64,000 nt of DNA from positions 1 to 64,000 of IMG/VR virus record IMGVR_UViG_3300044811_000020; one strand, written 5' to 3'. Both the position numbers and the translations under genes were made by a program. Numbering within the stretch: position 1 is the stretch's first letter; each line of letters starts with the position of its first letter. The stretch is from a virus. The notes under the pieces are model-generated. The model saw only the letters and a program-made list of their open reading frames with translations, did no database searches and was not told the origin of the DNA. This document shows, one piece after another, positions 29,750 through 57,802 of the stretch.

Positions 29750-30130
29750 ATGAAGAACTTCTGGACGAAACTGGCATCGGCGGCTCTGGCGCTTGTCGCG
29801 TCGGCGGGGCTGTCGTTCGCGGTCTATCAGTCGTCAGTTGACGGCATCGGCCTTGGCTCCACTACGGCACCGGTGCTTACCGGCTGCGGCACTGGCTCCC
29901 CGACCATTGTCGGCAATGACATGGCCGGCACGGTCACCACCGGTACCACAGCTACCGGCTGCGTTGTCACGTTCAACTCGGCCAAGAGCGCGGTCCCTGC
30001 GTGCGTCGTGACGCATCAGGTGGCACCGGCTACGTCGACCCCGGCCTATACCGTCACGGCGACCGCGATCACCGTCGTGCAGGCTTCGCAGACCGGCAAC
30101 AAGTTCAATTACGTCTGCATGGGTCTCTGA
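29750..30130 (+). CDS. Exported Cys-paired protein beside the coat genes (126 aa)
   Basis: Starts with a signal peptide (MKNFWTKLASAALALVASAG, likely cut after S-F-A near residue 24). The mature part of about 100 residues is a Thr/Val-rich beta protein with four cysteines (G-C, G-C, A-C, V-C). A signal peptide in the head operon is unexpected. One of nine such proteins. Probably exported and disulfide-bonded; function unknown. Confidence 0.75.
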   Translation: MKNFWTKLASAALALVASAGLSFAVYQSSVDGIGLGSTTAPVLTGCGTGSPTIVGNDMAGTVTTGTTATGCVVTFNSAKSAVPACVVTHQVAPATSTPAYTVTATAITVVQASQTGNKFNYVCMGL

Positions 30131-30139
30131 CATCTGGCG

Positions 30140-30155
30140 GGGCCCTTTGGGGCCC
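30140..30155 (+). terminator. GGGCCC hairpin
   Basis: GGGCCC, TTTG, GGGCCC, then TT: a short, very stable hairpin in the 59-base gap between two exported-protein genes. Too few T residues for efficient termination; may tune expression. Confidence 0.35.
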
Positions 30156-30189
30156 TTCCGCTCGTTTCAATCCACAACGGGGTTTTGCC

Positions 30190-30684
30190 ATGCTGAAGCG
30201 CTTGCTTCTCTCAATCATCACGTTGGCGGCCATCTTTGGCGTCGCGCAGGCGGTGAATATCTCCGGCACGGACTCCAGCGGGGAATTTTCCGTCATCAAG
30301 GTCGGCTATATCCGGCAGTCGGTTACGGATACGATCACCGCCTTTGCGGGCGGCGGGCAGACCAGCGCGACGTTGCTGGATTCCGGCTATAATCGGGTCA
30401 CGGTCGTGGCTAGCGCGAATGATAGCGTCAAGCTCCCGTCATGCCATTCGGGTCCCAGCAACACCGGTCCGATGCCGTCCGGCGTGATTTCGGGGAACAC
30501 CACGGGGCTCATGCTCTGGGTGACGAACGCGGACTCCGCCGATTCGATGAACGTATTCCCGCAGACCGGTGAATTCATCAACGCCTTGACCGTGAACTCG
30601 GCCTATGCGGTGGCGGCGAACAAGACGGTTGGCTTCCTTTGCAGCCCGGGCGGCTCTATCTGGTATTCCGTCCTCGGCGGCTAG
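30190..30684 (+). CDS. Exported beta-rich protein (164 aa)
   Basis: Signal peptide MLKRLLLSIITLAAIFGVAQ with a cut after Q-A near residue 21. The mature chain is beta-rich, with two cysteines (S-C-H, L-C-S). The start is chosen because the signal peptide begins there, although the ribosome site is weak. Second exported gene of the head region. Unknown. Confidence 0.72.
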   Translation: MLKRLLLSIITLAAIFGVAQAVNISGTDSSGEFSVIKVGYIRQSVTDTITAFAGGGQTSATLLDSGYNRVTVVASANDSVKLPSCHSGPSNTGPMPSGVISGNTTGLMLWVTNADSADSMNVFPQTGEFINALTVNSAYAVAANKTVGFLCSPGGSIWYSVLGG

Positions 30685-30698
30685 ACTGGTGGTGAATA

Positions 30699-31385
30699 AT
30701 GGCCACCGGGAATTCCCGCGATGCGATGGTGATAGCGATCACCTATGAGCTCGGCGCGCGGTCAGATTTGGCCGCGAACGGGACCATCCTCCGCTATATT
30801 AACAACGCGATCGAGATTTACCAGAAAGAGCGGTTCCGGTTCAACGAACTGACGCCGCGGACGCCGTTCACCCTGAATACTCAACAGGGGAAATTCTATT
30901 ACGACGGCACGGATGATCCGAATATCCCGCTGCTGTTCGATATCGATTATATCAATTATATCCTCGGAACTACGGTCGAGAAGATGCTGCGGGAGACGCC
31001 TGAAAACGTCTATCTCGCGCTCCAGACCGGGCAGGAGGCGGGCCCGCCGCAGACTTGGGCGTGGGACGGCCAATCGATCATCATCTATCCGAACCCGCCG
31101 GCGCAGGTTTATCAACTGACGATCGGCGGCTATTTGCAGTTCGCCGGGCCGGGCCCTGCGGACGGTGCTATTACGACCAATGTCTGGATGAATGAGGCAG
31201 AAATGCTGATTCGTTCTCGTGCCAAGTTCGAGATTGCGGCGCAGGTAACGCGCGACGAGAAGATGATGGCGCGGATGAGCCCGGTTCCCGGTAGTAATGG
31301 GGCGGCGGATATGGCCTATCGGATGCTGAAATCGGAGGCTTCGAAAATCCGCGGGACAAGCCGGGTCCGCGCAATGCAGTTTTAG
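30699..31385 (+). CDS. Head-tail adaptor candidate (228 aa)
   Basis: A helical N-terminus (Y-I-N-N-A-I-E-I-Y-Q-K-E-R-F-R-F) and a beta insertion, followed by a C-terminal helix. Order (coat, then this, then stabilisation protein) and size match the P22 gp4-type or gp11-type adaptor. It would dock on the portal. Confidence 0.65.
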   Translation: MATGNSRDAMVIAITYELGARSDLAANGTILRYINNAIEIYQKERFRFNELTPRTPFTLNTQQGKFYYDGTDDPNIPLLFDIDYINYILGTTVEKMLRETPENVYLALQTGQEAGPPQTWAWDGQSIIIYPNPPAQVYQLTIGGYLQFAGPGPADGAITTNVWMNEAEMLIRSRAKFEIAAQVTRDEKMMARMSPVPGSNGAADMAYRMLKSEASKIRGTSRVRAMQF

Positions 31386-31388
31386 ACC

Positions 31389-33095
31389 ATGCCGGTCGCA
31401 GAATTCCCCGCATTCCGCCCCGATCTGACCGAGCTAGGCACTGGCAGTTCCACGCTGATCAGCGGCGTTATTCCGCGCGGCGACGGCTATGGTCCGTTCA
31501 AGGATTTCGTGGGGTTTACGCAGGCGCTGCCGGCCGCCTGCCGCGGCTTCTTCTTCGCGCGGCGCTCGGACGGATCGATCGCGGTGTTCGCCGGGACGGT
31601 CGATCGGCTTTATCTGCTCGATAATACGACGTTCCTTTGGGTCGACGTGAGCAAGGGCGGGGTGGCCTATGGTGGCCTCGTCACCAACAAGAATTGGCGG
31701 TTTGCGCAGTTCAACGAATTCGTGCTCGCGGCGCAGATTAATACGGTTCCGCAAAAGTATGTCCTCACGGCTGGTCCGACGTTTGTGGATCTCGGCGGAT
31801 CGCCTCCGCAGGCGGGGCAGATTGCGATCGTCAACCGGATTGTGGTGCTGACGGAACTCCTGTCGAACCCGCGCCGCGCGCAGTGGTCGGACCTGGACGC
31901 GCCGGAGACATGGACGGCCGGCGTCGGTCTGGCGGATTTTCAGGACTTCCCGGACGGTGGCGTGTGCCATGCGCTCTCGGGCGGCGACGCCTATGGAGTG
32001 GTGTTTCAGGACGAGGCTATTCGCAGCCTGACGTATGCGCCGGGTTCTCCGGTGACGTTCCAGATCGCGCGTATATCGACGCAGGATACTCTCTTCGCGG
32101 AATATTCCGTGGTGAACGCCGGGACGCGGACGTTTTTCCTGTCTGCGCAGGGGTTCAAGGTTATTGTCGCCGGCGGGGAGCCGGTCGCGATCGGTAAAGA
32201 GTACGTCGACCGGTTCTTTTTCGAGGATGTGGACCGGAATAACCTGCAACTTGTCATTGGCGTCGCCGATCCGCAGGCCACGCGCGTCGGCTGGGCGTAT
32301 AAATCGCAGGCGGGCAACGCGGGTCTGTTCGATAAAATACTCTGGTTCGATTGGTCGATAAAGGAACGGCCATGGTCGATTACTCCGATGTCGGGGCAGT
32401 TCCTCGGATATCTGGCGCGCCCGGGGCTGACGCTCGAGGCGCTGGACTTTATCGCGCCTGGCGGGCTGACGGTGCTCGGTGCCGCGGCTGGTACGGCGGG
32501 GCGCGTGCGGCTGACGCTGGATGCGATCACGAATGCCTTTTTCTCGATTTCCGGGCAGAATTTCATCAATGTGCAGGGAATAAACCCGGCCTATATGAAC
32601 GGGCAGTGGGTTCCCATCATCATCGACGCCACGCATATCGAGTTGACCGGGTCGACCTTCGGTGCCGCGTGGGTGAGCGGCGGACGGATCGGCGGTTCGC
32701 TGGATGATCTTCCGTTCTCGCTGGACAGCATCTCGACGTCGGCGGTCGCGGCGCTCGCGGCCTTTGGCCCCACGAATATCCTCGGGTTTTTCACCGGACC
32801 GAATATCGAGGCCATCCTTGAGACGGCGGAGCAGGATGCGGATGGGCCGCTGGTGTTTATTGCCGGATTGGCACCGATGACGGATTCTCAGGATGCGATG
32901 TGCTCGGTCGGCTATCGGATGCGGCCGATGGACGTGGTTTCCTATACGGCGGAAACGCTCGTGAACACGGAAGGCGATTGTCCGGCTCAGATTGAGGCGA
33001 GGTTCTGTAAGGCGAGATTACGTATTCCTGCTGGTTCCACTTGGAGGTATGCTAGGGCAATTCGCCCTAACGTTCAGCAGGCAGGAGATATGTAA
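31389..33095 (+). CDS. Tail/packaged-DNA stabilisation protein, P22 gp10-like (568 aa)
   Basis: A long beta-propeller-type protein with repeated W/F-D-L patterns (S-D-L-D-A-P-E-T-W, F-Q-D-E-A-I-R-S-L, W-F-D-W-S-I-K-E-R-P-W). Length and order agree with P22 gp10 (472) and related podoviral tail-hub proteins that seal the head. The stop overlaps the start of a homing gene (TAATG). Confidence 0.75.
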   Translation: MPVAEFPAFRPDLTELGTGSSTLISGVIPRGDGYGPFKDFVGFTQALPAACRGFFFARRSDGSIAVFAGTVDRLYLLDNTTFLWVDVSKGGVAYGGLVTNKNWRFAQFNEFVLAAQINTVPQKYVLTAGPTFVDLGGSPPQAGQIAIVNRIVVLTELLSNPRRAQWSDLDAPETWTAGVGLADFQDFPDGGVCHALSGGDAYGVVFQDEAIRSLTYAPGSPVTFQIARISTQDTLFAEYSVVNAGTRTFFLSAQGFKVIVAGGEPVAIGKEYVDRFFFEDVDRNNLQLVIGVADPQATRVGWAYKSQAGNAGLFDKILWFDWSIKERPWSITPMSGQFLGYLARPGLTLEALDFIAPGGLTVLGAAAGTAGRVRLTLDAITNAFFSISGQNFINVQGINPAYMNGQWVPIIIDATHIELTGSTFGAAWVSGGRIGGSLDDLPFSLDSISTSAVAALAAFGPTNILGFFTGPNIEAILETAEQDADGPLVFIAGLAPMTDSQDAMCSVGYRMRPMDVVSYTAETLVNTEGDCPAQIEARFCKARLRIPAGSTWRYARAIRPNVQQAGDM

Positions 33096-33649
33096 TGCCG
33101 TGGAAATTCGAGGATTGCGTTTTCTCGCCGAAATCGTGCGCCCATTGCGGGCAGTCTTTTGTCCCAACCAGCGGTTCAGCCAAATTCTGCTCGGCTAAAT
33201 GTCATTTACTGTTGGGTGCGGTACGGCAAGATGACGGATGTCTGATTGGGCGATTCCATTTGGATCGGTATGGTTATGGCCAACTAACTTTAGCTGGGTC
33301 GGGGCGAGTAAATACGACGTCTCACAAAGTTTCCTACCGCGAAAATATTGGGCCGATTCCTCCCGGGATGTGTGTCTGTCACACCTGCGACAATCGCGCA
33401 TGCATTGAACCTAGCCATTTTTTCCTCGGAACGCATGGAGATAACGCCGCCGATAGCGCTCGGAAAGGGCGGCGGGCTCGGGGCGAGGGCCATCCGAGTA
33501 ATGTCCTGTCGGAAGAAAAGGTGCATGCGATCCTTGGGGATTCGCGTGCTCGCAGGTTTGTTGCGGTCGATTACGGCGTTTCGCGTGCGACAGTCGACGA
33601 TATCCGAACCGGTAAGAGTTGGGGTTGGTTGACGGGAAGAGGCTTATAA
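33095..33649 (+). CDS. HNH homing endonuclease (184 aa)
   Basis: An N-terminal zinc ribbon (C-A-H-C-G ... C-S-A-K-C), then HNH motif C-H-T-C-D-N-R-A-C-I-E-P-S-H-F-F-L-G-T, then a C-terminal HTH (V-A-V-D-Y-G-V-S-R-A-T-V-D-D-I) of the NUMOD kind. A typical free-standing homing enzyme. It is inserted without disturbing either virion gene: its start overlaps the upstream stop and the next ATG follows its stop directly. Confidence 0.85.
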   Translation: MPWKFEDCVFSPKSCAHCGQSFVPTSGSAKFCSAKCHLLLGAVRQDDGCLIGRFHLDRYGYGQLTLAGSGRVNTTSHKVSYRENIGPIPPGMCVCHTCDNRACIEPSHFFLGTHGDNAADSARKGRRARGEGHPSNVLSEEKVHAILGDSRARRFVAVDYGVSRATVDDIRTGKSWGWLTGRGL

Positions 33650-33982
33650 ATGGCCCTCCAAATCCCCTTTGATCTCGGGTTCAATATCGCCGGCTGGCGG
33701 CGGATGGTCGATTCGGTCATTCAATTGAATAACGGGCGCCATTATGCGGGCGGCGTGGTGCAGTTGGCGGCGGGCCCAGCTACGTCCACGGTCGTCAGTC
33801 ATCCGAACTGCTCGAAAGACTGCTTCCCGCTCCTGACGCCCGCGAACGCTGGTGCGGCGACGGAATATGGTGCTGGTACGTGCTATGTCGACGAGACGCA
33901 GGTGGATCAGGGTTCTTTCGTCATTGTGCATTCTGCGAGCGCGACGGTCCGGCGCTTCTTCTACACCGTGACAGGTGGTTGA
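33650..33982 (+). CDS. Small virion protein candidate (110 aa)
   Basis: A beta-rich protein with a Cys pair (N-C-S-K-D-C). Followed by a TGATG overlap. Position suggests a tail or head accessory protein. Not recognised. Confidence 0.6.
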   Translation: MALQIPFDLGFNIAGWRRMVDSVIQLNNGRHYAGGVVQLAAGPATSTVVSHPNCSKDCFPLLTPANAGAATEYGAGTCYVDETQVDQGSFVIVHSASATVRRFFYTVTGG

Positions 33983-34395
33983 TGGCCGTCATTGTGGAAG
34001 CGGTCGAGCCGGGCACTGCGGTTGGAATTTGGCCAAGAGTGCGCGATATGATCGACGCCGGGCTATCGGCCTGCGACGAGGTAATGCCGGAGGATATTCT
34101 GGACCGAATCGGCAGTGGTCGGATGCTGCTTTGGGTCGCGATCGAGGAAGCGAATGGCATCATCATCGCAGCCATGACCACGCAACTCGTCAAGCAGCGG
34201 TCGGGGCTGGTGTGCTGGATGTGCCAATGCGGCGGCGATCGGATGCGCGATTGGTCTCGTTTCCACGTCAAGATCGAGGAATATGCGCGCGTTGAGGGCT
34301 GTGTTAAGGTCGTTTTGGAAGGCCGCGAAGCCTGGCGGAAGGTGTTGGAGGGCTACAGCGTTCGCAGCGTCCGACTTGAGAAGGCTTTGACATGA
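33982..34395 (+). CDS. GNAT-like small protein (137 aa)
   Basis: Strand-helix order and the end C-V-K-V-V-L-E-G-R-E-A-W-R-K-V-L-E-G-Y resemble small GNAT-fold proteins that occur between tail genes in podoviruses. No clear acetyl-CoA P-loop, so activity is uncertain. Confidence 0.55.
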   Translation: MAVIVEAVEPGTAVGIWPRVRDMIDAGLSACDEVMPEDILDRIGSGRMLLWVAIEEANGIIIAAMTTQLVKQRSGLVCWMCQCGGDRMRDWSRFHVKIEEYARVEGCVKVVLEGREAWRKVLEGYSVRSVRLEKALT

Positions 34396-35513
34396 GCAGC
34401 AGCAGCAAAGAGACGCAACAGACGCAGCAAAGCCAGAGCCAGCCGTGGGCACCCGCGCTGCCGCTGGTGAACCAATTGCTCGGCCAGTATGGCGGAATGA
34501 GTACGGGCGTCACTGGCGATCAATCGGATGCGCTGGCGGGGCTGAAATCGTCGCTATCGAATCTGCCGAACTTTGGAGCGAGCGGCGCGGACGCGATATC
34601 CAAACTGTTCTCGTCAGATAGTTCGCCGCAGGTGGGCATGCTGCAGGGCGCCTATGGTGATCTCAAGTCGAACCTGGGCGCGACGGCGAGCGGTGCAAAC
34701 CTCAATCCGTATGATACGCCCGGCTTCTCGGATGCACTCAAGACGGCGACGGATGACGCGCTGAACCGGGTCAAGGGCGTCTATGCCGGCTCGGGCCGCG
34801 ATCCGTCGGGGGCGGGCTCGTTTGCTGGCTCGGCCGCGCGCGGCATTACGCAGGGCACGGCACCGACGATCGCCAACCAGTACAACCAGAATTACTCGAA
34901 TATGGCGGGCGCTAACAACGCGCTGTTTTCGGGTGCCGGATCGACGGCTTCGGGTATCACAAACCTGCGGCAGTCGGACTTTACGAACATGCTGGCAGGC
35001 TTGCAGGGCGCGAGCTCGCTGCCGGGGCTCTATGCCGCGCCGGCGGCGGCACAACTCGGTGCGGCCAATGCTGCCTATTCGCAGCCCTACCAGAACTTGG
35101 CGCAACTTCTCCAGCCGTCGGTTTCGTTGGCTGGCCTCGGCACAACGTCGAGCGGCAGTGGCCAGTCCACGCAAACGTCGACTCCATCGTGGTTGGATTC
35201 GATCAACTCGGGCTTTGGCCTCGCCGGCAAGGGCATGGGCGCTCTGAGTTCGCTGATGGCGTTCTCGGATGCCAATCTGAAAGAGGATGCTGCCCCGGTC
35301 GGCAAGTTGAACGATGGACAGACCGTTTGGAAATATCGCTACAAAGGCGATCCGGTGCCGCGGCTTGGTCTCATGGCGCAGGAAGTGCTCGAACATGAGC
35401 CGGAGGCGGTCGGCAAGCATTCGTCCGGCTTCCTCATGGTGGATTACGACCGCGCCACGAAGCGCGCGCGCGGCATGGGCGGACCGGTCGGTGCGCTGCG
35501 GGAGGCGGCTTAA
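34392..35513 (+). CDS. Internal virion protein with S74-like C-terminal domain (373 aa)
   Basis: An N-terminal Gln/Ser-rich arm, an Ala/Gly-rich helical body, and a C-terminal segment (residues about 285-355): S-D-A-N-L-K-E-D, W-K-Y-R-Y-K-G-D, R-L-G-L-M-A-Q-E-V, P-E-A-V. This is the peptidase-S74 intramolecular-chaperone pattern usually found on tailspikes and fibres. Here it sits just before the ejection genes. It may self-cleave after folding. Confidence 0.75.
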   Translation: MSSSSKETQQTQQSQSQPWAPALPLVNQLLGQYGGMSTGVTGDQSDALAGLKSSLSNLPNFGASGADAISKLFSSDSSPQVGMLQGAYGDLKSNLGATASGANLNPYDTPGFSDALKTATDDALNRVKGVYAGSGRDPSGAGSFAGSAARGITQGTAPTIANQYNQNYSNMAGANNALFSGAGSTASGITNLRQSDFTNMLAGLQGASSLPGLYAAPAAAQLGAANAAYSQPYQNLAQLLQPSVSLAGLGTTSSGSGQSTQTSTPSWLDSINSGFGLAGKGMGALSSLMAFSDANLKEDAAPVGKLNDGQTVWKYRYKGDPVPRLGLMAQEVLEHEPEAVGKHSSGFLMVDYDRATKRARGMGGPVGALREAA

Positions 35514-41630: not shown

Positions 41631-41860
41631 CCGAAATCACCAACGTGGATACCCGGAAGTTCGCTGACGAGCTCCGGCGCGCCGCAGATGAGATCGAGGC
41701 TGGCGATATGATCGCGATGGCGCTCATAACCTGTGACCACGAAGGAAATTCCGGAAACTGCTGCATGGTCGATCAGCACCGCGCCACGCATGAACTCCTC
41801 GACGAGATGGTGTATGCTGCCAAACAGATGATGTTCGATTCATTCGAGGACGGGAAATGA
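41627..41860 (+). CDS. Hypothetical helical protein (77 aa)
   Basis: All-helical and acidic with C-D-H-E-G-N-S-G-N-C-C, a possible metal site. ATGA overlaps with both the lysozyme and the HNH gene. Unknown. Confidence 0.6.
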   Translation: MTEITNVDTRKFADELRRAADEIEAGDMIAMALITCDHEGNSGNCCMVDQHRATHELLDEMVYAAKQMMFDSFEDGK

Positions 41861-42360
41861 AAAGAAATCGATACGTCCTACCTTCTCAGTTAATTCTGTT
41901 GAAGTATTTTTCCTATGATCCAGATACGGGGATCGTGAGAAATTTGATCAAGAGAAAGGGGGCAAATATTGGTGACGTAGTAGGGAGTGACAGCGGGAAG
42001 GGCTATCTCTATGCGTCCTTCCATGGGGTGAAATACCGATTGCATCGGCTGATCTGGAAAATGGTGACCGGCCGAGACCCTATAGCGCAGATTGATCACG
42101 AAGATTTAGACGGCATCAATAATAGGTGGGTCAACTTAAGAGAGGCGACCCAAGCCCAAAACCAAACGAATAAGCCGGGATGGTGCAAGAGTGGGCTGAA
42201 AGGAGCGTATCTCCACCACACCGGGAGATGGGTATCCCGCATTACGGTGGATAAGAAAGGCATCCACTTGGGTATCTTTGATACGATGCAGGAAGCTCAC
42301 CGCGCCTATGTGGCTGCGGCGCTGAAAATTCGCGGTGAATTTGCACGAGGCGGAAAATGA
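41857..42360 (+). CDS. HNH-AP2 homing endonuclease (167 aa)
   Basis: Complete HNH motif: H-R-L-I-W-K, I-D-H-E-D-L-D-G, N-N-R-W-V-N-L-R-E-A-T, followed by an AP2-like DNA-binding domain (residues 108-165: G-A-Y-L-H-H-T-G-R-W-V-S-R-I). A classical free-standing homing enzyme. Both ends are ATGA overlaps with neighbours, so it is coupled into the late operon. Confidence 0.88.
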   Translation: MKRNRYVLPSQLILLKYFSYDPDTGIVRNLIKRKGANIGDVVGSDSGKGYLYASFHGVKYRLHRLIWKMVTGRDPIAQIDHEDLDGINNRWVNLREATQAQNQTNKPGWCKSGLKGAYLHHTGRWVSRITVDKKGIHLGIFDTMQEAHRAYVAAALKIRGEFARGGK

Positions 42361-43436
42361 AAAAAGAGATCGTTAAATTTCTGATCCTGCTCATGGTGGC
42401 CGCTGGCGCTGGTCCCGCTGGCGCTGCCATTTGGAGTTGGAGCACGACGGCATCGACCAATGCTACGGCGGATCCAAGCATTAACTGGGCTGAAGGAATG
42501 GCCCCGTCTGCTGTGAATGACAGCGCCAGAGCCATGATGGCAGTTTTGGCGGCTTGGCGCAATGACGTGAGCGCGACGAATACAACGGCTGGCACGTCGA
42601 CCGCTTACACCTTGGCGACGTCCGAGGGCGTGAACACCACGCCAGCCAATGGCCAAATGCTCTCGTTCATCGCGCATGCGACGAATGGTGCTTCTCCAAC
42701 ATTGCAGGTAGACGGCGGCAACACGTATCCGCTCTGGCTGAATGGCTCGGTGGTTGGTTCTGGAACGCTCTTGGTCGGCTCTCCCTATCGGGTGGCATTT
42801 AGCGTAGCGAATAGCGCGTGGTTGCTCGAGGCGGGTTATGGGAACACCGGCACGCCTCTCGGCGCAATCCTCTGGTCGACGTCGCCGACTGCTCCCAGCA
42901 GCAACTTCGTCGCTCCATCCGGACAGTGCATTTCGACAACCACCTATGCGGCCTATTGGGTACAGCAGGGATCGCCAGCGAGCGGTGCGTGTCCAGGTGG
43001 TCAGTTCGCGATTATCGACATGCGCGGCCGCGTTGCCGCGGGGCTCGATACGCTGAATGCGTCGGCTGCTAATCGATTGACGAGCTCAGCGACGGGCTGC
43101 GGAACTGCCATGACGTCGGTTGGGGCGGTGTGCGCTAACGGCACGCAGGGGTCGGTGATACCGCTGGCGCAACTTCCTACTGGCATCGTGTCGTCGGTCA
43201 GTGTGGTTTCACCTTCATCCAATTATTTGACGTCTCCCGTGACGGGCTACGGCATTACGTCATTCAGCGCAAATTCGGGCGGTACGGTTTGGCAGGCATT
43301 TTCGCAGGGTGCCTCGATTATTGTCTCTGCTACCATAACCTCAACTGGCACGGCGACATCGGCCAATACGAGCGGTTTGGTTCGCCCGAATGTGCAGGAT
43401 ACCATCGGTCTCATCCCCTATCTGCGGATTCTCTAA
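42357..43436 (+). CDS. Exported tail-fibre-like protein (359 aa)
   Basis: Signal peptide of about 22 residues (MKKEIVKFLILLMVAAGAG), then the usual N-terminal module of phage tail fibres (W-S-W-S-T-T-A-S-T-N ... I-N-W-A-E-G-M-A-P-S), then a collar-like domain (F-A-I-I-D-M-R-G-R-V-A-A-G). Four cysteines in the mature chain. A fibre module behind a Sec signal is the anomaly. ATGA start overlap. Confidence 0.8.
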   Translation: MKKEIVKFLILLMVAAGAGPAGAAIWSWSTTASTNATADPSINWAEGMAPSAVNDSARAMMAVLAAWRNDVSATNTTAGTSTAYTLATSEGVNTTPANGQMLSFIAHATNGASPTLQVDGGNTYPLWLNGSVVGSGTLLVGSPYRVAFSVANSAWLLEAGYGNTGTPLGAILWSTSPTAPSSNFVAPSGQCISTTTYAAYWVQQGSPASGACPGGQFAIIDMRGRVAAGLDTLNASAANRLTSSATGCGTAMTSVGAVCANGTQGSVIPLAQLPTGIVSSVSVVSPSSNYLTSPVTGYGITSFSANSGGTVWQAFSQGASIIVSATITSTGTATSANTSGLVRPNVQDTIGLIPYLRIL

Positions 43437-43894
43437 TGTCGGTCATTCAAACAGATTTGCGAGTTAATCCGGTCGCCGCGGCGCGAAATGTCTCATACGC
43501 GCCGACGGCTCCATTGACGGCCATCACGGTGCAGGCTGCAATCGACCAATTGCAGGGAGAAATCACAGTCGGGTCAGTGACCCCTCCGGCTATTGTGCCA
43601 ACTCCGGTGACTTTTGCTCAGTCGCCTTACACGGTCCTGTCGACGGATTATCTGCTTGAGGTCGACACGACGGGTGGGGCGGTGACGATCCAGACCGCCG
43701 CATCGGCGTCGCGCGGCAACAAGCCATTCACGGTCAAGGATATCGCAGGAAATTCTGCCGTGAATGCCATATCGATTCTGCGCACTGGCGCGGAGACGAT
43801 CGATGGTATGACGTCCTATCCAATGGATTCCGCGTATGACGCCAAGACGTTCAAGCCCAAGTTGGCTGGGACCGGATATGAGGTTGAAGCATGA
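43436..43894 (+). CDS. Fibre-associated protein without signal peptide (152 aa)
   Basis: Starts MSVIQTDLRVNPVAAARNVS with a fibre-type N-terminal motif and beta-rich body, cysteine-free. Overlaps neighbours at both ends (TAATG, ATGA). Contrasts with its exported neighbours, so it is probably a virion baseplate or fibre connector. Confidence 0.68.
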   Translation: MSVIQTDLRVNPVAAARNVSYAPTAPLTAITVQAAIDQLQGEITVGSVTPPAIVPTPVTFAQSPYTVLSTDYLLEVDTTGGAVTIQTAASASRGNKPFTVKDIAGNSAVNAISILRTGAETIDGMTSYPMDSAYDAKTFKPKLAGTGYEVEA

Positions 43895-45030
43895 AGATTT
43901 TACGTGTCGCTGTGGCCTGGCTGGCGCTGTGCGGCGCAGCCTACGCACAGTCGCAGGTGCCGGCTGGTGGCGTCATGGGCAACTCGACCGCGGGACAACG
44001 ACCCGCGCGCGCAGAGACCGTCACATCCATTCTGGACCGGGCTCTGGGCTCCACGCGAGGGGCCATTCTTGAGCGCGGCGCGGCCAGTTGGCAGATCGTT
44101 GTGCCCAACGCGACGGCTGGCCTGCCATTTGTGTCCGCTGGCACCGGTGCTGATCCGCTCTATCAGTTGCTGGGCGTGGTCGGCGGCGGGACCGGGCAGA
44201 ATACTTACGCGATCGGCGATATTTTGCAGGCGTCAGCGTCGACGACCTTGGCGCGGCTGGCTGCGGTAGCAACGGGCAACGCGCTGATTTCTGGCGGGGT
44301 CGGCACCGTTTCATCGTGGGGTAAAATCGCATCCACGCATCTGAACATCACGACAACGAGCTGCACTAATCAATTTGTTTCGGCGATATCGGCCGGCGCG
44401 GTGGGAACATGTGCGAGCGTTCCAATCGGCACCGCGGTTTCTGGCCTTGGGACCACGGTGGCAACGACGCTGGCTGCCGCGGTGAATGCTACGGGGGGCA
44501 TAGTTTCGCCGACTCCGACGCGGGCCGGAGATATTATTTATTGGAACGGGTCAAATTGGGTCACATTGGCCGGAAATAATTCCGGGACCAATATTCTTCA
44601 GGAAAACGCATCTGGCGTGCCGTCTTGGGTTGCCAACGCTGGATTTACGGCAGCGACGAAGGCGGACCAGCAGGCCGCAACGAGCAATGTAGTAGCGATA
44701 ACGCCGCTGCATCAGCAGGATCACGATAGCGCGGCTAAGGTTTGGGTGAATTTTACCGGGTCGACCGGCGCGATTCTCACTTCATACAATGTCGGGTCAA
44801 TGAGCCGGACTGGCGTCGGGGAATATACGATAAATTTCACGACGGCCTTTGCGACCGCAAATTATATGTGCCAAGTCACGTCGGAAACTGGCGGAACCGC
44901 GCCGTTGGCCTTTGTTTATACGGGCGTGGCCAAGACGACGGCTCTTGTGCATATCGGATTTGAAAACGCGGCGGGTGGGGCTTTTGTGGACCCGACGATC
45001 GGTCATGTCGTCTGCTTTGGAAGGCAATAG
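43891..45030 (+). CDS. Exported tail-fibre-like protein (379 aa)
   Basis: Signal peptide MKILRVAVAWLALCGAAYAQ; mature chain with fibre repeats (G-V-M-G-N-S-T-A, G-D-I-I-Y-W-N-G-S-N-W-V), and a beta C-terminal domain with a conserved F-E-N-A-type strand. Four mature cysteines. Adjacent to the endolysin gene. Probably a host-facing or virion adhesin. Confidence 0.78.
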   Translation: MKILRVAVAWLALCGAAYAQSQVPAGGVMGNSTAGQRPARAETVTSILDRALGSTRGAILERGAASWQIVVPNATAGLPFVSAGTGADPLYQLLGVVGGGTGQNTYAIGDILQASASTTLARLAAVATGNALISGGVGTVSSWGKIASTHLNITTTSCTNQFVSAISAGAVGTCASVPIGTAVSGLGTTVATTLAAAVNATGGIVSPTPTRAGDIIYWNGSNWVTLAGNNSGTNILQENASGVPSWVANAGFTAATKADQQAATSNVVAITPLHQQDHDSAAKVWVNFTGSTGAILTSYNVGSMSRTGVGEYTINFTTAFATANYMCQVTSETGGTAPLAFVYTGVAKTTALVHIGFENAAGGAFVDPTIGHVVCFGRQ

Positions 45031-45839: not shown

Positions 45840-46295
45840 ATGGCTTTGAGCCTTCCTACCGCCGATCAGGTAAAAGCGGTCTCCCGGCACATGGGGACGG
45901 CGGTGGCGTCGATCCTGGGCACGCTCGCGGCGCTCAAGATCATCAGCGGCACTGACGTTTCGTCTCTTCAGTCGTCATTTGATCAGATTAGCCACGGGGT
46001 AGCTGAGACCGTTACCGGTCTTACGGCGCTCAGTGTCGCTGCCACGACGCTTTATTCCGCCCTTTCCGCTAATCCGCTGCTCCAGTTCCTCAAAGGGTCG
46101 AAAGCGGTTGCTGCGGATCCAAGTCTCGTACAGGGAACCAACGTCTCGGATGCAGATCAGGCGACGGTCGCCAAGGCGGCCATCCAACTTCCGAAGGTCG
46201 AGAGCATTGTGGCCGCTCCAGAGGTAGCCAATGCCGTGCCGAGTCCGGCGGTACAATCCACTGATGACGTCAAAGTCGTCGATAAGGCAGCATAG
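45840..46295 (+). CDS. Holin candidate (151 aa)
   Basis: Two hydrophobic helices (residues about 18-38 and 56-78) followed by a polar, Ala/Val-rich tail. Next to the endolysin and with a strong AGAGGGG site, it is the best holin candidate. The long tail is unusual. Confidence 0.65.
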   Translation: MALSLPTADQVKAVSRHMGTAVASILGTLAALKIISGTDVSSLQSSFDQISHGVAETVTGLTALSVAATTLYSALSANPLLQFLKGSKAVAADPSLVQGTNVSDADQATVAKAAIQLPKVESIVAAPEVANAVPSPAVQSTDDVKVVDKAA

Positions 46296-46305
46296 GGAGG
46301 CTTCG

Positions 46306-46698
46306 TTGAAACGCATTCTCGCATCCATGGCCGTCGTTCTCGTGCTCGGCGGCTGCAGCACCCTAGCCACGGTGCAAAAGGTCGCGACAGCGACTGTTCC
46401 GGCTGAGGTGGTGACCCCGGCGGCAAACACGTTCACTATCCTGAAGAACGCGGCCGCCAACTACGGCGAATACTGCATCAGCAAGCAGATGGCACCGGCG
46501 ATTTGTTCGGCCGGCACCCGCCGCATCGTTGTTAGAGCCGTGCGGGTCGGCACCAATGCTCGCGACCAGATGACGGCGAATCTTGAGAATGGCACGCCTG
46601 CCGCGTCGTCTGTTTTCAACCTGATGGTGGAGGCGATCGACGATCTTAAAAACTCGCCGGCCGCTGCATCTCAATTTACAGGGATACCAGTCCAATGA
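46306..46698 (+). CDS. Lipoprotein of the lysis region (130 aa)
   Basis: TTG start at 46306 placed by AGGGAGG upstream; the chain opens with a signal peptide and lipobox L-G-G-C-S near residue 17. The mature part of about 114 residues is helical with two further cysteines. Position after holin and endolysin suggests an outer spanin-type role, but it is larger than Rz1. Confidence 0.7.
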   Translation: MKRILASMAVVLVLGGCSTLATVQKVATATVPAEVVTPAANTFTILKNAAANYGEYCISKQMAPAICSAGTRRIVVRAVRVGTNARDQMTANLENGTPAASSVFNLMVEAIDDLKNSPAAASQFTGIPVQ

Positions 46699-49464: not shown

Positions 49465-49509
49465 TTCAGCGGGTTCACGTTCCTTCCGGCACCCGACTGA
49501 GTGTGAGAG

Positions 49510-49538: not shown

Positions 49539-49586
49539 GCGTTTGGTTCCTGTGCTATCCGTTGACGATCATTTTCGGAGGCATCC

Positions 49587-49949: not shown

Positions 49950-49952
49950 GCC

Positions 49953-51515: not shown

Positions 51516-52146
51516 GATAGGCACCAGCAACGCCCTTGATTTGGCGGGCATAAGATATGGCCGGCTCTTGGTTAAGAGCCGTGGCCCGAATAATAAGTGG
51601 TCGCAAACCACTTGGTTTTGCGTTTGCGACTGTGGCGTTGAGCGGTTATTTGCGGGGCGCGATTTGCGAGGTGGCGACACCAAGTCCTGCGGCTGCTTAG
51701 ATGCTGAATCTCGCAAAGAGCGGCATGTAACGCATGGGCACGCGCGCGTTGGGCAACTTTCGCCGGAGTATAGCGTCTGGCGTGCGATGCACGGGCGCTG
51801 CAATGATATGACTGATGAACGCTACGGCGGTCGGGGGATCACCGTTTGTGAGCGGTGGGCCGACTTTGAGGCGTTCTATGAGGACATGGGTCCGCGTCCG
51901 TCCATGGAGCATTCAATCGAAAGAACCAAGAACGGCGAGGGCTACAGCAAAGAAAATTGCATTTGGGGAACTCGGGATCAGCAGGCTCGTAATCGGCGGT
52001 CGAATATCGTTGTTGAATATCGCGGTGAAGAAATGGTGCTGACCGACGCATGCAAACTGGCCGGGCTGCCATTCTCCACGGTGAGGGCGCGTATAAAGGT
52101 TTTGGGGTGGGATACTGCCCGGGCGCTGATGGAGCCTATCCGATGA
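51508..52146 (+). CDS. Homing-endonuclease-like protein, paralog C (212 aa)
   Basis: GTG start eight bases inside terL. N-terminal zinc ribbon (C-V-C-D-C-G ... S-C-G-C), conserved core W..M..RC, Y-G-G-R-G-I-T-V-C-E-R-W, M-G-P-R-P, E-N-C-I-W-G-T and a C-terminal helical region (F-S-T-V-R-A-R-I). Nearest relative is paralog A. Genes beside terL are common homing targets. Confidence 0.65.
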   Translation: MRRIGTSNALDLAGIRYGRLLVKSRGPNNKWSQTTWFCVCDCGVERLFAGRDLRGGDTKSCGCLDAESRKERHVTHGHARVGQLSPEYSVWRAMHGRCNDMTDERYGGRGITVCERWADFEAFYEDMGPRPSMEHSIERTKNGEGYSKENCIWGTRDQQARNRRSNIVVEYRGEEMVLTDACKLAGLPFSTVRARIKVLGWDTARALMEPIR

Positions 52147-52364
52147 GCCGCCACGATCGACGAGCGCGGGCAAAAGAGGCGGGGCTGGATTGGCGGGCGA
52201 ATCAGCGCGCCAGTAGAACAGCCGCGCGCGTGGAGCGGGCCGTGCTGGCGATGCGCCCAGATGAGGCTAGGAAGATTTTAGCCGAATGGGCGGCCGAGAC
52301 AGGCCGCTCTCAGGCCGATGTGGATGCGCTGAACGCGAGGGTGGGCGATGGTCAGGCGAGATGA
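52143..52364 (+). CDS. Hypothetical basic protein (73 aa)
   Basis: A basic helical protein, MSRHDRRARAKEAGLDWRAN, ATGA start overlap. Unknown. Confidence 0.6.
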   Translation: MSRHDRRARAKEAGLDWRANQRASRTAARVERAVLAMRPDEARKILAEWAAETGRSQADVDALNARVGDGQAR

Positions 52365-52533
52365 CCCGATCGAGGATCGTCGGCGCGCGCTGATGCGCCA
52401 GGCGGCGGCGATGTCCAATAGCAAATTCAGCCTTAGCGGGCGGGAGAAGGAGGGCGGCTACAAGCCGCGCAAGCCTTCGCTGCCGAAAATGCCTTGGGAT
52501 GACAAGGCGGAGGGCGATAATGGGGACGCGTGA
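52348..52533 (+). CDS. Hypothetical basic protein (61 aa)
   Basis: Highly charged and likely disordered, overlapping neighbours at both ends (16 and 14 bases). Unknown. Confidence 0.5.
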   Translation: MVRRDDPIEDRRRALMRQAAAMSNSKFSLSGREKEGGYKPRKPSLPKMPWDDKAEGDNGDA

Positions 52534-52753
52534 GCTCAAAGATAGCTTCAATCAGGTTGCCGCGCCGGTTGCTACCTGCACCAAGGCGCTGATGGAGACG
52601 TTGCCGGGCGGTATCCAGAAACTGTATTTCAGCGGAAGCTATGCGGATGGCGCGGGGTTTGTTATAGAGAGCCCGCAAATCAGACCCGGGGTTGACCTCG
52701 TTCTCGCATCACGAGACGTCGCCGCGGAGCTTTTAAACCGGACGAGGGCATAA
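52520..52753 (+). CDS. Hypothetical protein (77 aa)
   Basis: Start MGTRELKDSF with GGAGGG upstream. Alpha/beta, ends in TAATG overlap with the first exported gene of the distal cluster. Unknown. Confidence 0.6.
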   Translation: MGTRELKDSFNQVAAPVATCTKALMETLPGGIQKLYFSGSYADGAGFVIESPQIRPGVDLVLASRDVAAELLNRTRA

Positions 52754-53112
52754 TGATGCGATTCATTGCGACGTTTCTTGCGTCCATTCTGTGGTGCGGC
52801 GCGGCATTTGCGACGGACTGCTCCGGGACGATCGCGACGGGCGGGACGGCGCAGACGATCTTCACGAGTTCGAACGTCCGCACGCTGATGGTGATGAACA
52901 ATTCCGCGAATCTGATGTGCATGTCCATCAGCGGGGTTGCGGCAACGATCGCAGGCACGAATTGCGGGGCGGGCTCCTATGTTCTCCAACCTGGTTCGGC
53001 CACGGCCGCCGGTGGCTCGTTTTACAAAGACGGGAATGGTCCGGCGATAAGCACGGTCTCGATTATATCTTCTGGCACCGGGGATAGATTCTCGTGTGAG
53101 CGGGGCAGTTAA
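52753..53112 (+). CDS. Exported Cys-paired protein (119 aa)
   Basis: Signal peptide MMRFIATFLASILWCGAAFA; the mature chain of about 99 residues is beta-rich with four cysteines (D-C, M-C, N-C, S-C). The C-terminal 17 bases overlap the next exported gene. Likely folded with two disulfides outside the cytoplasm. Confidence 0.75.
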   Translation: MMRFIATFLASILWCGAAFATDCSGTIATGGTAQTIFTSSNVRTLMVMNNSANLMCMSISGVAATIAGTNCGAGSYVLQPGSATAAGGSFYKDGNGPAISTVSIISSGTGDRFSCERGS

Positions 53113-53338
53113 CGTGCTCCGGATCGCGCTGGCGGGTGCCCTCATGCTGGCCTCGGTCGGCGCATATGCTCAATTCAATAAATGCGGCCGCGGGTTCTGT
53201 CCCGGCGGCATTAACGGTCCCGGGGTGACGACGCCGGGCGGCGCGATTGCGCCTCCATCGTGCAGCCCGGGTGCGGCCACGGGCGAGATGGATTTCTCTA
53301 AATGCAGCAATATCGCGATTACGGCCGCTCTTTGGTAA
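53096..53338 (+). CDS. Exported small Cys-rich protein (80 aa)
   Basis: Signal peptide in the first 26 residues (V-L-R-I-A-L-A-G-A-L-M-L-A-S-V-G-A-Y-A); an in-frame GTG 18 bases later may be the true start. The mature part of about 54 residues has four cysteines (K-C-G-R-G-F-C, S-C, K-C). Resembles a disulfide-knotted secreted peptide. Unknown. Confidence 0.68.
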   Translation: MSGAVNVLRIALAGALMLASVGAYAQFNKCGRGFCPGGINGPGVTTPGGAIAPPSCSPGAATGEMDFSKCSNIAITAALW

Positions 53339-53349
53339 AGGAAACGATC

Positions 53350-54549
53350 ATGCGCAGATTACTCGCTCTCTTTGCAGTCGGGCTGGCGCTGGTCGCTTCT
53401 CCGGCTGCCGCGGACTGGACCGGCAAGAATGCCGCCGGCACCACGATAACATTTTTCAACGGAGTGGATTGCACCAGCGTCGTCTGCGTACCGATCGCGG
53501 CGCTCGTCAACGCGGCTGGTGCCACGGCATACGGCACTGCTGGAGCGTCGAATGCGGCGGTCCTCTCGGTGCAAGGCATCGCCTCGGGCACGCCTCTGCC
53601 GATCAGCGGCACGGTGACGTCGAACGTCGGCACCGGCACCCGCGCGGTTAGTATTGCCTCGGGGCAGGTGGCGTCTGGGGCCATCGCCGCGGGCGCTCTC
53701 GCTTCCGGATCGATCTCCGCTGGCGCGCAGGTTGATCTGTTGACCATGCGCGGCACGGTGGCGGCCGGTACTGCGGCGGCCAACTCAATGCTGACGGGAT
53801 GTATCTATAACTCGAGCCCGATCACATTGACGACCGGCCAAGGTGCGGCTGTGCAATGCAGCGTCAATGGATATCCGACCGTTGTGGTCTCGAACACGCT
53901 AACTGCGGTTACGCCTGGTGATGGCATCACGACGACAATCTACGGAACGGCCGCGGCTTCTCCAGTCATCGGCGCAACGTTGCTCTGGAACGGCACCACC
54001 TATGATCGATGGAAGTCCTCCGGTTCGACCGGAATCGCCGCTGCTGGACTCTTCCAGGGCGCCACGGCGCTTTCGGCGACCAACGGTATTTTCGCCAATA
54101 TCTTACAGGGCAACGCGGTTCTGTCGGCGACTAACCCATCCTTCGCTCGTTCAACCGACGGCACTCGCTCTGCGATCATTGATCCATGCGAGGCTAATCT
54201 GCAGTCCTACGCTCCGATCAGCATAACGACTGCGACCACCACGCGCATCGTGGCCCCATCTGCCAGCAACAAAACGTATATATGCCATCTATTCCTGACC
54301 TCGGCGGCCGCTGACAATATCGGCATTGTCGAGGGCACTGGCGGCACCTGCGGCACCGGCACCGCTGGTGTGATCGGCGGCACCACTGCGGCGAACGGCC
54401 CGAACTTCGCGGCGAATGGCGGCGTTGCTCTCCATGCTGGCGGCAAGGTAGCGGCGGCGCAGACGGCTGGAACGAACGTTGATCTCTGCCTGATCACCTC
54501 GGCAGCCACGCCGCTCGCCGGCGGCATCAAATACGTGCAAGCGCCGTAA
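53350..54549 (+). CDS. Exported fibre-like protein (399 aa)
   Basis: Signal peptide MRRLLALFAVGLALVASPAA, then a low-complexity Ala/Gly/Thr region and a beta C-terminal domain. Eight mature cysteines (an even number). AAAGGAA ribosome site. Content resembles tail fibres in repetitive G-T-A-G and A-S-G-S runs. Confidence 0.75.
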   Translation: MRRLLALFAVGLALVASPAAADWTGKNAAGTTITFFNGVDCTSVVCVPIAALVNAAGATAYGTAGASNAAVLSVQGIASGTPLPISGTVTSNVGTGTRAVSIASGQVASGAIAAGALASGSISAGAQVDLLTMRGTVAAGTAAANSMLTGCIYNSSPITLTTGQGAAVQCSVNGYPTVVVSNTLTAVTPGDGITTTIYGTAAASPVIGATLLWNGTTYDRWKSSGSTGIAAAGLFQGATALSATNGIFANILQGNAVLSATNPSFARSTDGTRSAIIDPCEANLQSYAPISITTATTTRIVAPSASNKTYICHLFLTSAAADNIGIVEGTGGTCGTGTAGVIGGTTAANGPNFAANGGVALHAGGKVAAAQTAGTNVDLCLITSAATPLAGGIKYVQAP

Positions 54550-54560
54550 GGAATCCCGCC

Positions 54561-55490
54561 ATGAACAAACTCTTTGGCCTTTTCCTTCTCGCGATCGCGT
54601 TCCTGGCGCCGGATGCCGCCTATGCGGTCAACTGCTTTTGGGTTGGTGGCACAGGTCCTTGGACTAGCGCTAGCATCGCTAATTGGGCACCTACAACTGG
54701 CGGGGCTGCAACTGGATGCCAGACCAGCAACGCTGCCCCTGCGGCGGGCGATACTATCACGTTCGATTCCAGTTCGGGCGGCGGAACGGCGACTCCTGAC
54801 TCGTCTATCAACGGCATTGCATTTGGCGCTCTGTCAGCAGGTGGCTATACCAACGGAACGCTTGCGTTCAACACAAACAACCCAAGTCCAACATTCGCTT
54901 CGGTAAGCTTCACTGGCGCTGTAACGCGCACCATCAATATGGGCAGCGGAACGTGGACGATTACTGGCAGCACTTCGACTATATTTACTGTGGCGACCGC
55001 TACCGGCCTGACGGATACTTTTCAAAACGCAACCATCGCGTTTACAGCAACGACATCTAACACTCGGTTCTTCTTGAGTGCAGGAAAGACCTTTGGGGCA
55101 TTTACGGTAAGTAACAATACCAGCCTTGGCATAGTCAGCATGACAGGTGCCAACACGTTTGCTTCGATGACCATTGGGTCTGGGACTACTATCGGTATTC
55201 CTGTGAATACAACAACCACCATATCAGGTGCATCGACATTTACAGGAACAGCTGCTGCGCCTTCGGGAATAATTGGAGATTCACTAGGCAACGGGAATAC
55301 CGCCACGATAAGCTTCTCGGCTGGCACAACTACAATGGTTTGGGGAGCATTAGTTAACATAACCACAGCCGGGGCGGGCACATTCACAGCCACTAATAGT
55401 TTTAACAACCGCACAGTCCTCGATGCAGGGGACACTATTTCGCCTCCGAGCGGAAGCGGTGGCGGTGGCGGCAGGATCATTGGTGGATAA
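54561..55490 (+). CDS. Exported beta-helical fibre-like protein (309 aa)
   Basis: Signal peptide MNKLFGLFLLAIAFLAPDAA, mature chain rich in Thr/Ser/Gly with repeating strand units (T-F-T-G, A-T-I-S-F), two cysteines near the N-terminus, and a Gly-rich tail (S-G-G-G-G-G-R-I-I-G-G). Visibly more A/T-rich than most of the genome. Probably an adhesin or receptor-binding partner of the tailspike. Confidence 0.75.
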   Translation: MNKLFGLFLLAIAFLAPDAAYAVNCFWVGGTGPWTSASIANWAPTTGGAATGCQTSNAAPAAGDTITFDSSSGGGTATPDSSINGIAFGALSAGGYTNGTLAFNTNNPSPTFASVSFTGAVTRTINMGSGTWTITGSTSTIFTVATATGLTDTFQNATIAFTATTSNTRFFLSAGKTFGAFTVSNNTSLGIVSMTGANTFASMTIGSGTTIGIPVNTTTTISGASTFTGTAAAPSGIIGDSLGNGNTATISFSAGTTTMVWGALVNITTAGAGTFTATNSFNNRTVLDAGDTISPPSGSGGGGGRIIGG

Positions 55491-57802
55491 TGAAGTGGAA
55501 ATTCATTGCGGCGATTTTAGCCTTACTCATACCGAGCGCTTGCTACGCTGCATTCGCAATCTTTCAAACTGCTACCACAGGGGTAGTGGCGGCTGCATCA
55601 TCGTGTAACGTCATTACTGGCGTTGCTACCGGGATGGATGCGGGGACGTGCTTAGTCACTCCCGCGACATGCGACGGTGTGGCAGATGATCGTGTTGCCT
55701 TAGTAGCCGCTAACACTTGGGGGCGGGCGACCACCGCACAGACTGCTGGCTTGGTTGTTGAGCTTTATATTCCACCCGGCAAAACTTGCATGATCCTGTC
55801 CGGCGTGGTGCATTTTGCTCCCGTTTTAGCCGGACTAAAGAAGGGTCGCCTAACCGCTTACGGCTCCTCCATTAACGGTGACGGCGTACACAGTATTGCC
55901 CTTGGGGCAACGACCACGCAGGGTGGCGTGTGTCAGGTGGGTATTACTTTCGCAGGCGGTTGCAGCGCTCGAACAGCGTCAGTCACAGCGGGTGCTTCGT
56001 CTGTCACGCTTGATGCTACGGCATCCGGGGTTTCATTGGCAACTCTATGCGCGCGCTTTCATAACAACGGTTATGTGGCGGTGGCAGGGTTTGACTTGCA
56101 AGGCGCGTTTTCCAGCGCTTACGGTTTCCCACCGAATCCTCAATGGTCTGAGTGGATAAAAATCGCCCCAACGGGAGTGAATAGCTGTTCCGGGTCGGGA
56201 GTAATTACGTTCGCAACCACTCTACAAAACAGCTATCTCTCAACATGGCCGTTGTATTCGAGCGGCGCTGCCACGGAGGCCGATCAAGGAGGCCCTGCTA
56301 CCATTTACTCTGTGGGCAGCGGGATCGCCGCCCCCATAAGTGTAGATAGCTGGGATGGTGAAGCTGAAGTCTATGGCCTTACCACCGATATAAATCTCTA
56401 CGTGATGGGCCGTTCGTTTTACGGCAAAGACATAACGATGAATGGGACGGGATGCATCTGGCCGTCACAGAATGGGAGTGCCACTTTCGTAAATACGTCC
56501 GGACTGAATTGCATCATCGAAGTTGATAAGATGATAGGGACGCTTACGTATGATAATTCGCCGATCAAGCGTATCTTTTTCCAGAGTTCCTCTACAGCTG
56601 ATCTCATTGTCCGAAACACAGTCTTTCCAAACAATAGCCCGACAGCCAACATAGATGGCACTCCTCGGCGCGCAGCGATTTCAAATTCAACTATTCCGTT
56701 TTTGAAATTGGGGCCGCAGGCGTATGGGGAAGCAGACAGCTTCTCCTGCACCAATTGCGTGATTGGCAACGTACTCACGGGCCCGTCTGTAATCTTCAAA
56801 GGAGGTACGGGAGACCCCGGCGCAAATGTCTTCTTCGCCAGCCCAAACATTGCCAGCGGTGTTTTCAGTATTCCTGATTCCATGGCTGTTACAGGCTTTG
56901 CCAATAACGGCTCTGGCTTCGTTCGTTTAACTGTCGCGAGCACCACAGGATGGGCTACCGGGCTTCGGCCGGGTCATCAGGGATTATTCGGAAGCTGCCC
57001 CGGTACTTGCGCTGCAAGCTTCATATTGACTGTTGTCGATGCTACCCATTTTGACACCAATTTGGCATTCGCCAGCTACACTTGGTCTGGTGGTGGCTCG
57101 ATGACCCTTGGGGCACAGCAATGGAATGTCCCCGGCCACTATTTCAGCTTTAGCAGTTCAACTGGTCCCGCCACGCAGTTCTACCAAATCACTGGCGTAA
57201 CGCAGGACGCGACCGGCACGCATGTAGCAACAACATTTCCCGGCAGTGCAATTCCGACAATACCGCTGAGTGGCCCCGCTACGGTATTCCTACCGCCGTC
57301 CATTGCAAACTTTACTTGCACCAATTGCACCGGCACTGCTCAAGCCGTAGACATGAGCACATGGCCCGCAAATAAGCCCATATTTCAATACTCCAACAGG
57401 TCGTACTCAAACTTGACGGCGATGGAAACCGGCACGCTCTTAGGTGCAGTGACTAGCATCACCATCACTGTGTCGGATGCTTATACCGGCGCAACGAACC
57501 CGATGCGGTTTCAGTTGTTTGGGAATACTGTGAATGCAGCCGGAACGCTGCAGAACTATGCTGGTATAATCAACCTTCGTCAGGCGGGCATTCGTGTTAT
57601 CACCCCTGCGGGAGTTACCTGCGACACAGGCGGCGGCCCAGTTGGGGGTGCCTGCTCTGGTGACAGTAGTCTGACGCTGCCAGCTTCCACTTCCAGATTT
57701 GCCAACACCCTGACGCCATCAAAGCTCGATGGCTCACCAGTCGATGATACGTGGGCGATGAACTACTCATTTGTCTTAGATCAGGGCGTGGTGTGGCCGT
57801 AG
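55490..57802 (+). CDS. Exported beta-helix tailspike/depolymerase candidate (770 aa)
   Basis: Signal peptide MKWKFIAAILALLIPSACYA; next C-D-G-V-A-D-D-R-V-A-L, the usual opening of phage tailspike beta-helices, then long Thr/Ser/Gly-rich coils. Eighteen mature cysteines, an even number, including two F-[ST]-C-T-N-C repeats. Probably binds or cleaves a surface polysaccharide. A signal peptide on a spike is unexpected. Confidence 0.75.
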   Translation: MKWKFIAAILALLIPSACYAAFAIFQTATTGVVAAASSCNVITGVATGMDAGTCLVTPATCDGVADDRVALVAANTWGRATTAQTAGLVVELYIPPGKTCMILSGVVHFAPVLAGLKKGRLTAYGSSINGDGVHSIALGATTTQGGVCQVGITFAGGCSARTASVTAGASSVTLDATASGVSLATLCARFHNNGYVAVAGFDLQGAFSSAYGFPPNPQWSEWIKIAPTGVNSCSGSGVITFATTLQNSYLSTWPLYSSGAATEADQGGPATIYSVGSGIAAPISVDSWDGEAEVYGLTTDINLYVMGRSFYGKDITMNGTGCIWPSQNGSATFVNTSGLNCIIEVDKMIGTLTYDNSPIKRIFFQSSSTADLIVRNTVFPNNSPTANIDGTPRRAAISNSTIPFLKLGPQAYGEADSFSCTNCVIGNVLTGPSVIFKGGTGDPGANVFFASPNIASGVFSIPDSMAVTGFANNGSGFVRLTVASTTGWATGLRPGHQGLFGSCPGTCAASFILTVVDATHFDTNLAFASYTWSGGGSMTLGAQQWNVPGHYFSFSSSTGPATQFYQITGVTQDATGTHVATTFPGSAIPTIPLSGPATVFLPPSIANFTCTNCTGTAQAVDMSTWPANKPIFQYSNRSYSNLTAMETGTLLGAVTSITITVSDAYTGATNPMRFQLFGNTVNAAGTLQNYAGIINLRQAGIRVITPAGVTCDTGGGPVGGACSGDSSLTLPASTSRFANTLTPSKLDGSPVDDTWAMNYSFVLDQGVVWP

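Follow-up and report, generated by a model that had tools for sequence, protein, structure and literature searches.

Predicted Sec export and paired cysteines in nine proteins encoded among the virion genes of a P22-like phage

It is usually assumed that tail fibres have no disulfides and fold in the cytoplasm, under reducing conditions, and to our knowledge the tailspike and fibre proteins of phage P22 have no signal peptide. We report on a stretch of 64,000 nucleotides (hereafter the window), part of the 66,456-base IMG/VR record IMGVR_UViG_3300044811_000020, in which nine late genes encode proteins with a predicted Sec-type signal peptide and an even number of cysteines after the predicted cut. 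The record shares with P22-like podoviruses the types of portal (PF16510, 6e-100), major head protein (phrog_334) and DNA ejection protein (phrog_4287), and it also encodes a terminase; the nine signal-bearing proteins among the late genes set it apart from P22.

Sec-exported virion proteins are known from filamentous phages: the inovirus coat proteins pIII and pVIII are exported in this way, and pIII is disulfide-bonded. The route that we propose for the fibres resembles this one. Inovirus assembly, however, takes place at the inner membrane and involves no lysis, whereas the phage considered here is a tailed double-stranded DNA phage with portal, terminase and endolysin-type genes, and its exported proteins do not fall among inovirus coat proteins. 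Our searches of the open-access literature, a scope that leaves out most subscription journals and bioRxiv, turned up no tailed phage described as having fibres with a signal peptide and paired cysteines. The “signal peptides” of extracellular contractile injection systems (eCIS; PMC12210884) were considered as a parallel and set aside, since they are disordered loading signals and not Sec signals.

In Gram-negative bacteria, a signal peptide together with an even number of cysteines is described as an accepted criterion for DsbA substrates (PMC7678975); the substrates in the available part of that source are host proteins, with no phage fibre among them. The nine proteins share with DsbA substrates both the (predicted) signal peptide and the even, pairwise conserved cysteines. 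Their genes, named here by start position, and the gene coupled between two of them are listed below.

29750..30130, plus strand: predicted exported protein of 126 aa, signal MKNFWTKLASAALALVASAGLSFA, 4 mature cysteines; between the capsid and 29278 genes and the 30699 gene
30190..30684, plus strand: predicted exported protein of 164 aa, signal MLKRLLLSIITLAAIFGVAQA, 2 mature cysteines
42357..43436, plus strand: predicted exported collar-type tail fibre with a signal, a canonical fibre N-terminal domain (mature start near residue 24) and a collar domain with 4 cysteines
43436..43894, plus strand: fibre- or baseplate-like protein without signal and without cysteines, coupled between the fibre genes 42357 and 43891
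43891..45030, plus strand: predicted exported protein with a fibre module, signal MKILRVAVAWLALCGAAYA, 4 mature cysteines
52753..53112, plus strand: predicted exported protein of 119 aa, 4 mature cysteines, all four columns conserved in four relatives
53096..53338, plus strand: predicted exported protein of 80 aa, 4 mature cysteines (4 or 2 in relatives); not clearly fibre-like
53350..54549, plus strand: predicted exported protein of 399 aa, 8 mature cysteines; its start is an internal ATG of a longer open reading frame (ORF) that opens at 53302
54561..55490, plus strand: predicted exported protein of 309 aa, Thr/Ser/Gly-rich, 2 mature cysteines (4 in the homolog of record G003)
55490..57802, plus strand: predicted exported protein of 770 aa, 18 mature cysteines (20, 12 and 12 in homologs); spike-like by composition only

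Signal peptides and cysteine parity

The score for Sec signals cut by signal peptidase I was written for this analysis from the charge of the n-region, a 9-residue hydrophobic core and an A-x-A-type site, with a cut-off of 4.0; the choices of start codons and signals were our own. Among 8,772 internal windows, 2 reach this cut-off, as do 0.2% of shuffled N-termini. On E. coli K-12 (87 kb) it passes 1 of 63 non-exported proteins, and 12 of 14 known exported E. coli proteins are detected (range 3.67-5.19). The nine window genes score 4.09-5.16, each with a positive n-region, a hydrophobic h-region and a predicted A-x-A-type cut; in most of them the n-region is classical, the h-region short and the site A-x-A. 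Only 1 signal-bearing gene was found among 167 called genes of five isolates with related genes.

The first-pass annotation, made from the letters of the window, had proposed Sec-type signals in these nine genes and mature cysteine counts of 4, 2, 4, 4, 4, 4, 8, 2 and 18. All nine ORFs are where it placed them, a signal is scored in each, and the counts, all of them even, were reproduced; one additional cysteine lies within the signal itself in 43891, 52753 and 55490. No lipobox cut occurs in the nine, so they do not belong with superinfection-exclusion lipoproteins of the T5 Llp type, and no Pfam or PHROG lysis domain was found in them, which sets them apart from signal-arrest-release (SAR) endolysins and spanins.

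Parity was counted among the genes called in the window and in 23 related phage records or loci. Among proteins with at least one cysteine, the number is even in 73 of the 80 that bear a signal and in 218 of the 511 (43%) that do not. Four of the seven odd signal-bearing proteins have a lipoprotein-like N-terminus, where one cysteine would be lipidated. The parity of the nine stands, but the odds of 1 in 512 earlier attached to it do not, as the observed background of 218/511 gives about 0.43^9, or 1 in 2,000. It had also been said that structural neighbours without a signal are free of cysteines; this is correct for 29278, 34392 and 43436 but selective, since the major capsid protein has 2 cysteines, 31389 has 5 and 33650 has 3.

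To lessen the effect of kinship, each protein was paired with its nearest unused homolog, and the pairs differing in cysteine number were compared. With a signal, 8 of 9 such pairs differ by an even number, and without one 25 of 84 do (Fisher p=0.0009); the ninth signal-bearing pair, with an odd difference, is of the lipoprotein type.

The alignment columns behave in the same manner. In the 53350 family, eight cysteine columns act as four pairs, (31,36), (148,167), (304/306,337) and (361,411): the member in G003 is without the first pair, that in G012 without the second, those in G020 and G021 retain only the last, and those in G010, G016 and G019 retain the last two with one partner moved by two columns. 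A different set, of four cysteines, is found in the distant member from G001. Of the members of the 30190 family, ten retain the pair (71,147), three have (144,157) instead, and three have neither. Such paired gain and loss is the pattern expected of disulfides and not of free thiols. The four-cysteine domain of 29750 recurs at the C-terminus of a larger predicted exported protein in G021.

The collar-type fibre 42357 and other modules

Protein 42357 is a collar-type tail fibre by homology. It has the N-terminal domain of the “tail fiber protein” from Bradyrhizobium phage ppBeUSDA76-2, with 43.5% identity over 56% of the query; both this protein and the tail-collar protein of Microcystis phage Mae-JY35 are homologs of the mature chain. 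The family profile matches the cyanophage A-1(L) tail fibre (8kec, 1.6e-12) and T4 gp12 (9.9e-6) in PDB; a fold search with a model built with 64 homologs (predicted local distance difference test, pLDDT, 74) matches 8kec at 6.7e-6, while the AlphaFold model obtained without an alignment (pLDDT 31) was discarded. By itself 42357 matches the tail protein phrog_8763 (2.5e-5) and not PF07484, which is matched by its signal-less sister L057 (5.6e-14). The N-terminal domain is common to 42357 and collar-domain tail fibres (PF07484, T4 gp12, 8kec, ppBeUSDA76-2). However, the known collar fibres begin with Met at this domain, have no signal and usually 0-1 cysteines, whereas 42357 has a signal ahead of the domain and four conserved cysteines in the collar.

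The fibre gene is present in one copy per phage and comes after the ejection-protein genes, as does the fibre gene in Paracoccus phage KLEP18-1 and in the Microcystis and Bradyrhizobium phages. Judging by its N-terminal place, the conserved domain would be the site of attachment to the tail. In signal-bearing phages the ratio of nonsynonymous to synonymous substitution rates (dN/dS) is about 0.07 for this domain versus 0.12-0.15 for the rest, a rough comparison with dS near saturation. Directly upstream of 42357 lies an HNH homing-endonuclease gene (HNH_3, 41857-42360) that also has an AP2 domain, and a second HNH_3 gene (33095-33649) is likewise located beside structural genes; these endonuclease genes might help to move fibre genes.

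Domain-alignment scans yielded 80 viral loci and 80 bacterial-genome loci, and duplicates were then removed. Without a signal and with Met at the domain there are 134 non-redundant homologs, which have 0 (36 homologs), 1 (56), 2 (26), 3 (10), 4 (4), 5 (1) or 8 (1) cysteines. With a signal ahead of the same domain there are 11, and all 11 have 4 or 6. Locus L127, with an ambiguous hydrophobic N-terminus and 2 cysteines, was kept apart from both sets. The Fisher values for signal versus no signal, p=1.1e-5 for parity (homologs with cysteines) and 1.2e-12 for at least 4 cysteines, are not exact, as there are few independent events.

The four collar cysteines, in alignment columns 197, 217/218, 256 and 268, are present in 11 of 11 signal-bearing rows and in 0 of 9 aligned rows without a clear signal, six of which belong to the clade of the signal-bearing rows. 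An additional pair (85,120) occurs jointly in L050 and L053, both signal-bearing. The tree requires about four changes of the signal label, all of them within one group of 17 rows (Shimodaira-Hasegawa-like approximate likelihood ratio test, SH-aLRT, 93). The predicted cut near A|AIW in this family would give the N-terminus of the signal-less homologs.

The C-terminus of 43891 matches phrog_11355 (tail fiber). Its homologs have 0-18 cysteines, nearly always an even number, and fibres without a signal contain the module as well; in one of them, L255, it shares a single chain with the 43436 domain. A domain of the 30190 type is C-terminal in L300, a secreted beta-helix-type protein of bacterial genome G095, and is also found in a signal-less tandem form (L299). 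L300 has a start that resembles pectate lyase by eye, and with 7 mature cysteines it is an exception to parity.

The nine chains had been described as fibre-like throughout. This is established for 42357 and supported for 43891 and 30190; for the others the likeness is compositional, and 53096, of 80 aa, is not obviously fibre-like. Proteins 52753 and 53096 may have other roles. Recognisable fibre or spike modules had been ascribed to 42357 and 55490; for 55490 this description is weaker, as no Pfam or PHROG model matched the protein. Searches of isolated phages by tblastn with 55490, 43891, 30190 and 29750 gave no match, nor did a scan with 55490 and a profile scan with 30190 in IMG/VR.

Virion attachment and the alternatives

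Signal and paired cysteines co-occur across homologs and the cysteines change by twos; at the level of sequence, we regard the export and disulfide pairing proposed in the first-pass annotation as well supported. The attachment of the exported proteins to virions is a further presumption. We consider it fairly probable that the nine genes encode receptor-binding fibres together with smaller decorating proteins, which would be exported by Sec, oxidised in the periplasm and joined to virions at lysis. Each protein would be directed by its N-terminal Sec signal, to be removed by signal peptidase I. Its cysteines would then very likely pair into disulfides in the oxidising periplasm, probably via the host DsbA, which would yield hardened fibres. 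At lysis, the rupture of the envelope would bring virions assembled in the cytoplasm together with the exported proteins, and the fibres would dock through the conserved N-terminal domain and complete the particle. As an analogy for the proposed attachment we take the tailspike of P22, which in extracts can be the last part to join finished particles.

For the tailed phages of this group in general, we give about an even chance to the statement that virions are finished outside the cytoplasm, by several fibre and decoration proteins folded and disulfide-bonded in the periplasm that join them only at lysis, a maturation route that is not described for tailed phages. If this is true, virion assembly spans two compartments, lysis doubles as an assembly step, and the Sec and DsbA of the host could be needed for adsorption of the phage. 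A signal peptide combined with even, paired cysteines and a fibre module provides a sequence rule for searches of metagenomes, and the same fibre with and without a signal provides a natural pairwise comparison for testing the export route.

Several points weigh against this explanation. The 145 homologs of 42357 are not 145 independent tests, as the tree offers only 2-4 independent pairs, and the fibre dN/dS comparison suffers from dS near saturation. The signal-less relatives L253 and L262 of the 43891 module have even cysteine counts. Odd counts occur in the signal-bearing proteins G015_17542 (9), G013_117 (3), G010_47845 (3) and G016_50603 (3, with a doubtful signal), as well as in L298 (3) and L300 (7) from bacterial genomes. 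That the nine proteins are cleaved, form disulfides, leave the cytoplasm and enter virions is in each case an inference, and an efficient route from the periplasm to the virion is unproven.

The main rival is receptor masking: the nine proteins would be exported and disulfide-bonded yet never enter virions, and would act on the infected cell or its debris, e.g., as receptor ligands that bind either from the side of the envelope or once the cell has lysed and so block superinfection or re-adsorption of progeny. Export and disulfides fit it equally well, the receptor-binding-type modules and the fast divergence agree with it, and the small 52753 and 53096 need not be virion parts. However, a pure decoy would not need the fibre N-terminal domain, which is intact and under stronger purifying selection than the tip; moreover, 42357 is the only copy of the fibre and follows the ejection-protein genes, which is also the place of the fibre gene in the Bradyrhizobium, Microcystis and Paracoccus phages. 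Because the N-terminal domain is conserved, we favour addition to virions over alteration of the infected cell, and masking seems to us rather unlikely.

It is quite improbable that the hydrophobic N-termini are not export signals at all, in which case the proteins would fold in the cytoplasm, retain the uncut segment in the virion (e.g., for membrane entry at infection) and acquire disulfides from air after lysis. Virions do meet oxidising conditions after lysis, and an internal virion protein with a predicted signal was reported for Klebsiella phage JKP2 (PMC10194101). On the other hand, most of the nine N-termini have the classical build of a cleavable signal described above, and a cut near A|AIW in the 42357 family would restore the N-terminus of the signal-less homologs. 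The collar cysteines occur only with the signal; the signal-less sisters of the same clade are without them, though exposed to the same air.

We assign the same low probability to a reading in which the nine are secreted accessory proteins of an ordinary kind, either cargo or factors of lysogenic conversion, whose genes are found among virion genes by coincidence. After the terminase gene, five of the nine genes stand together as a block, and there are some without a match to any known family; exported accessory genes are carried near the tail genes of phages such as lambda. Against this, three of the proteins, 42357, 43891 and 30190, have relatives among fibre or spike modules, and lysogenic conversion is unlikely because no tyrosine integrase was found in the record of the window or in 7 of the 8 long relatives searched.

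Chance parity or an annotation artefact is hardly credible: the figure of 1 in 512 was arrived at post hoc, and starts and signals were chosen by the analyst, but the parity is repeated across the related records and loci, the independent homolog pairs and the paired columns, and the five isolates have a single signal-bearing gene among their 167.

Relatives and neighbouring genes

The nearest long relatives are viral contigs of 62-66 kb. The sole record with a tyrosine integrase among the nine long records searched is G016 (L215-L218), which has a fibre without a signal and few exported genes; this case hints that the exported set may accompany a non-temperate life style. A search for the large terminase subunit (TerL) in genome contigs gave no match.

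Related prophages, with capsids 46-59% identical, are found in the bacterial family to which Bradyrhizobium sp. BTAi1 belongs. These relatives make a host in this family likely, and we read the host family as pointing to a soil or rhizosphere origin of the phage group. In six related prophages the order is capsid, 29278 homolog, 30699 homolog; nothing like 29750 or 30190 was called between these genes, and no exported fibre was called in the structural region. Relative to these prophages, the exported genes would be an added layer. They lie between highly conserved neighbours yet diverge much faster, with 41-72% identity among relatives for 29750 versus 67-100% for 29278.

Three further genes of the window can be mentioned. 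The DNA-ejection-type protein at 34392-35513 (phrog_4287) bears a Peptidase_S74 self-cleaving chaperone domain. A small early-region ORF at 18332-18571, outside the virion genes, has a signal-like N-terminus and no cysteines. Near the lysis-type genes, 46231-46698 encodes a lipoprotein with the lipobox LGGC and two further closely spaced cysteines, which is possibly an outer-membrane spanin component.

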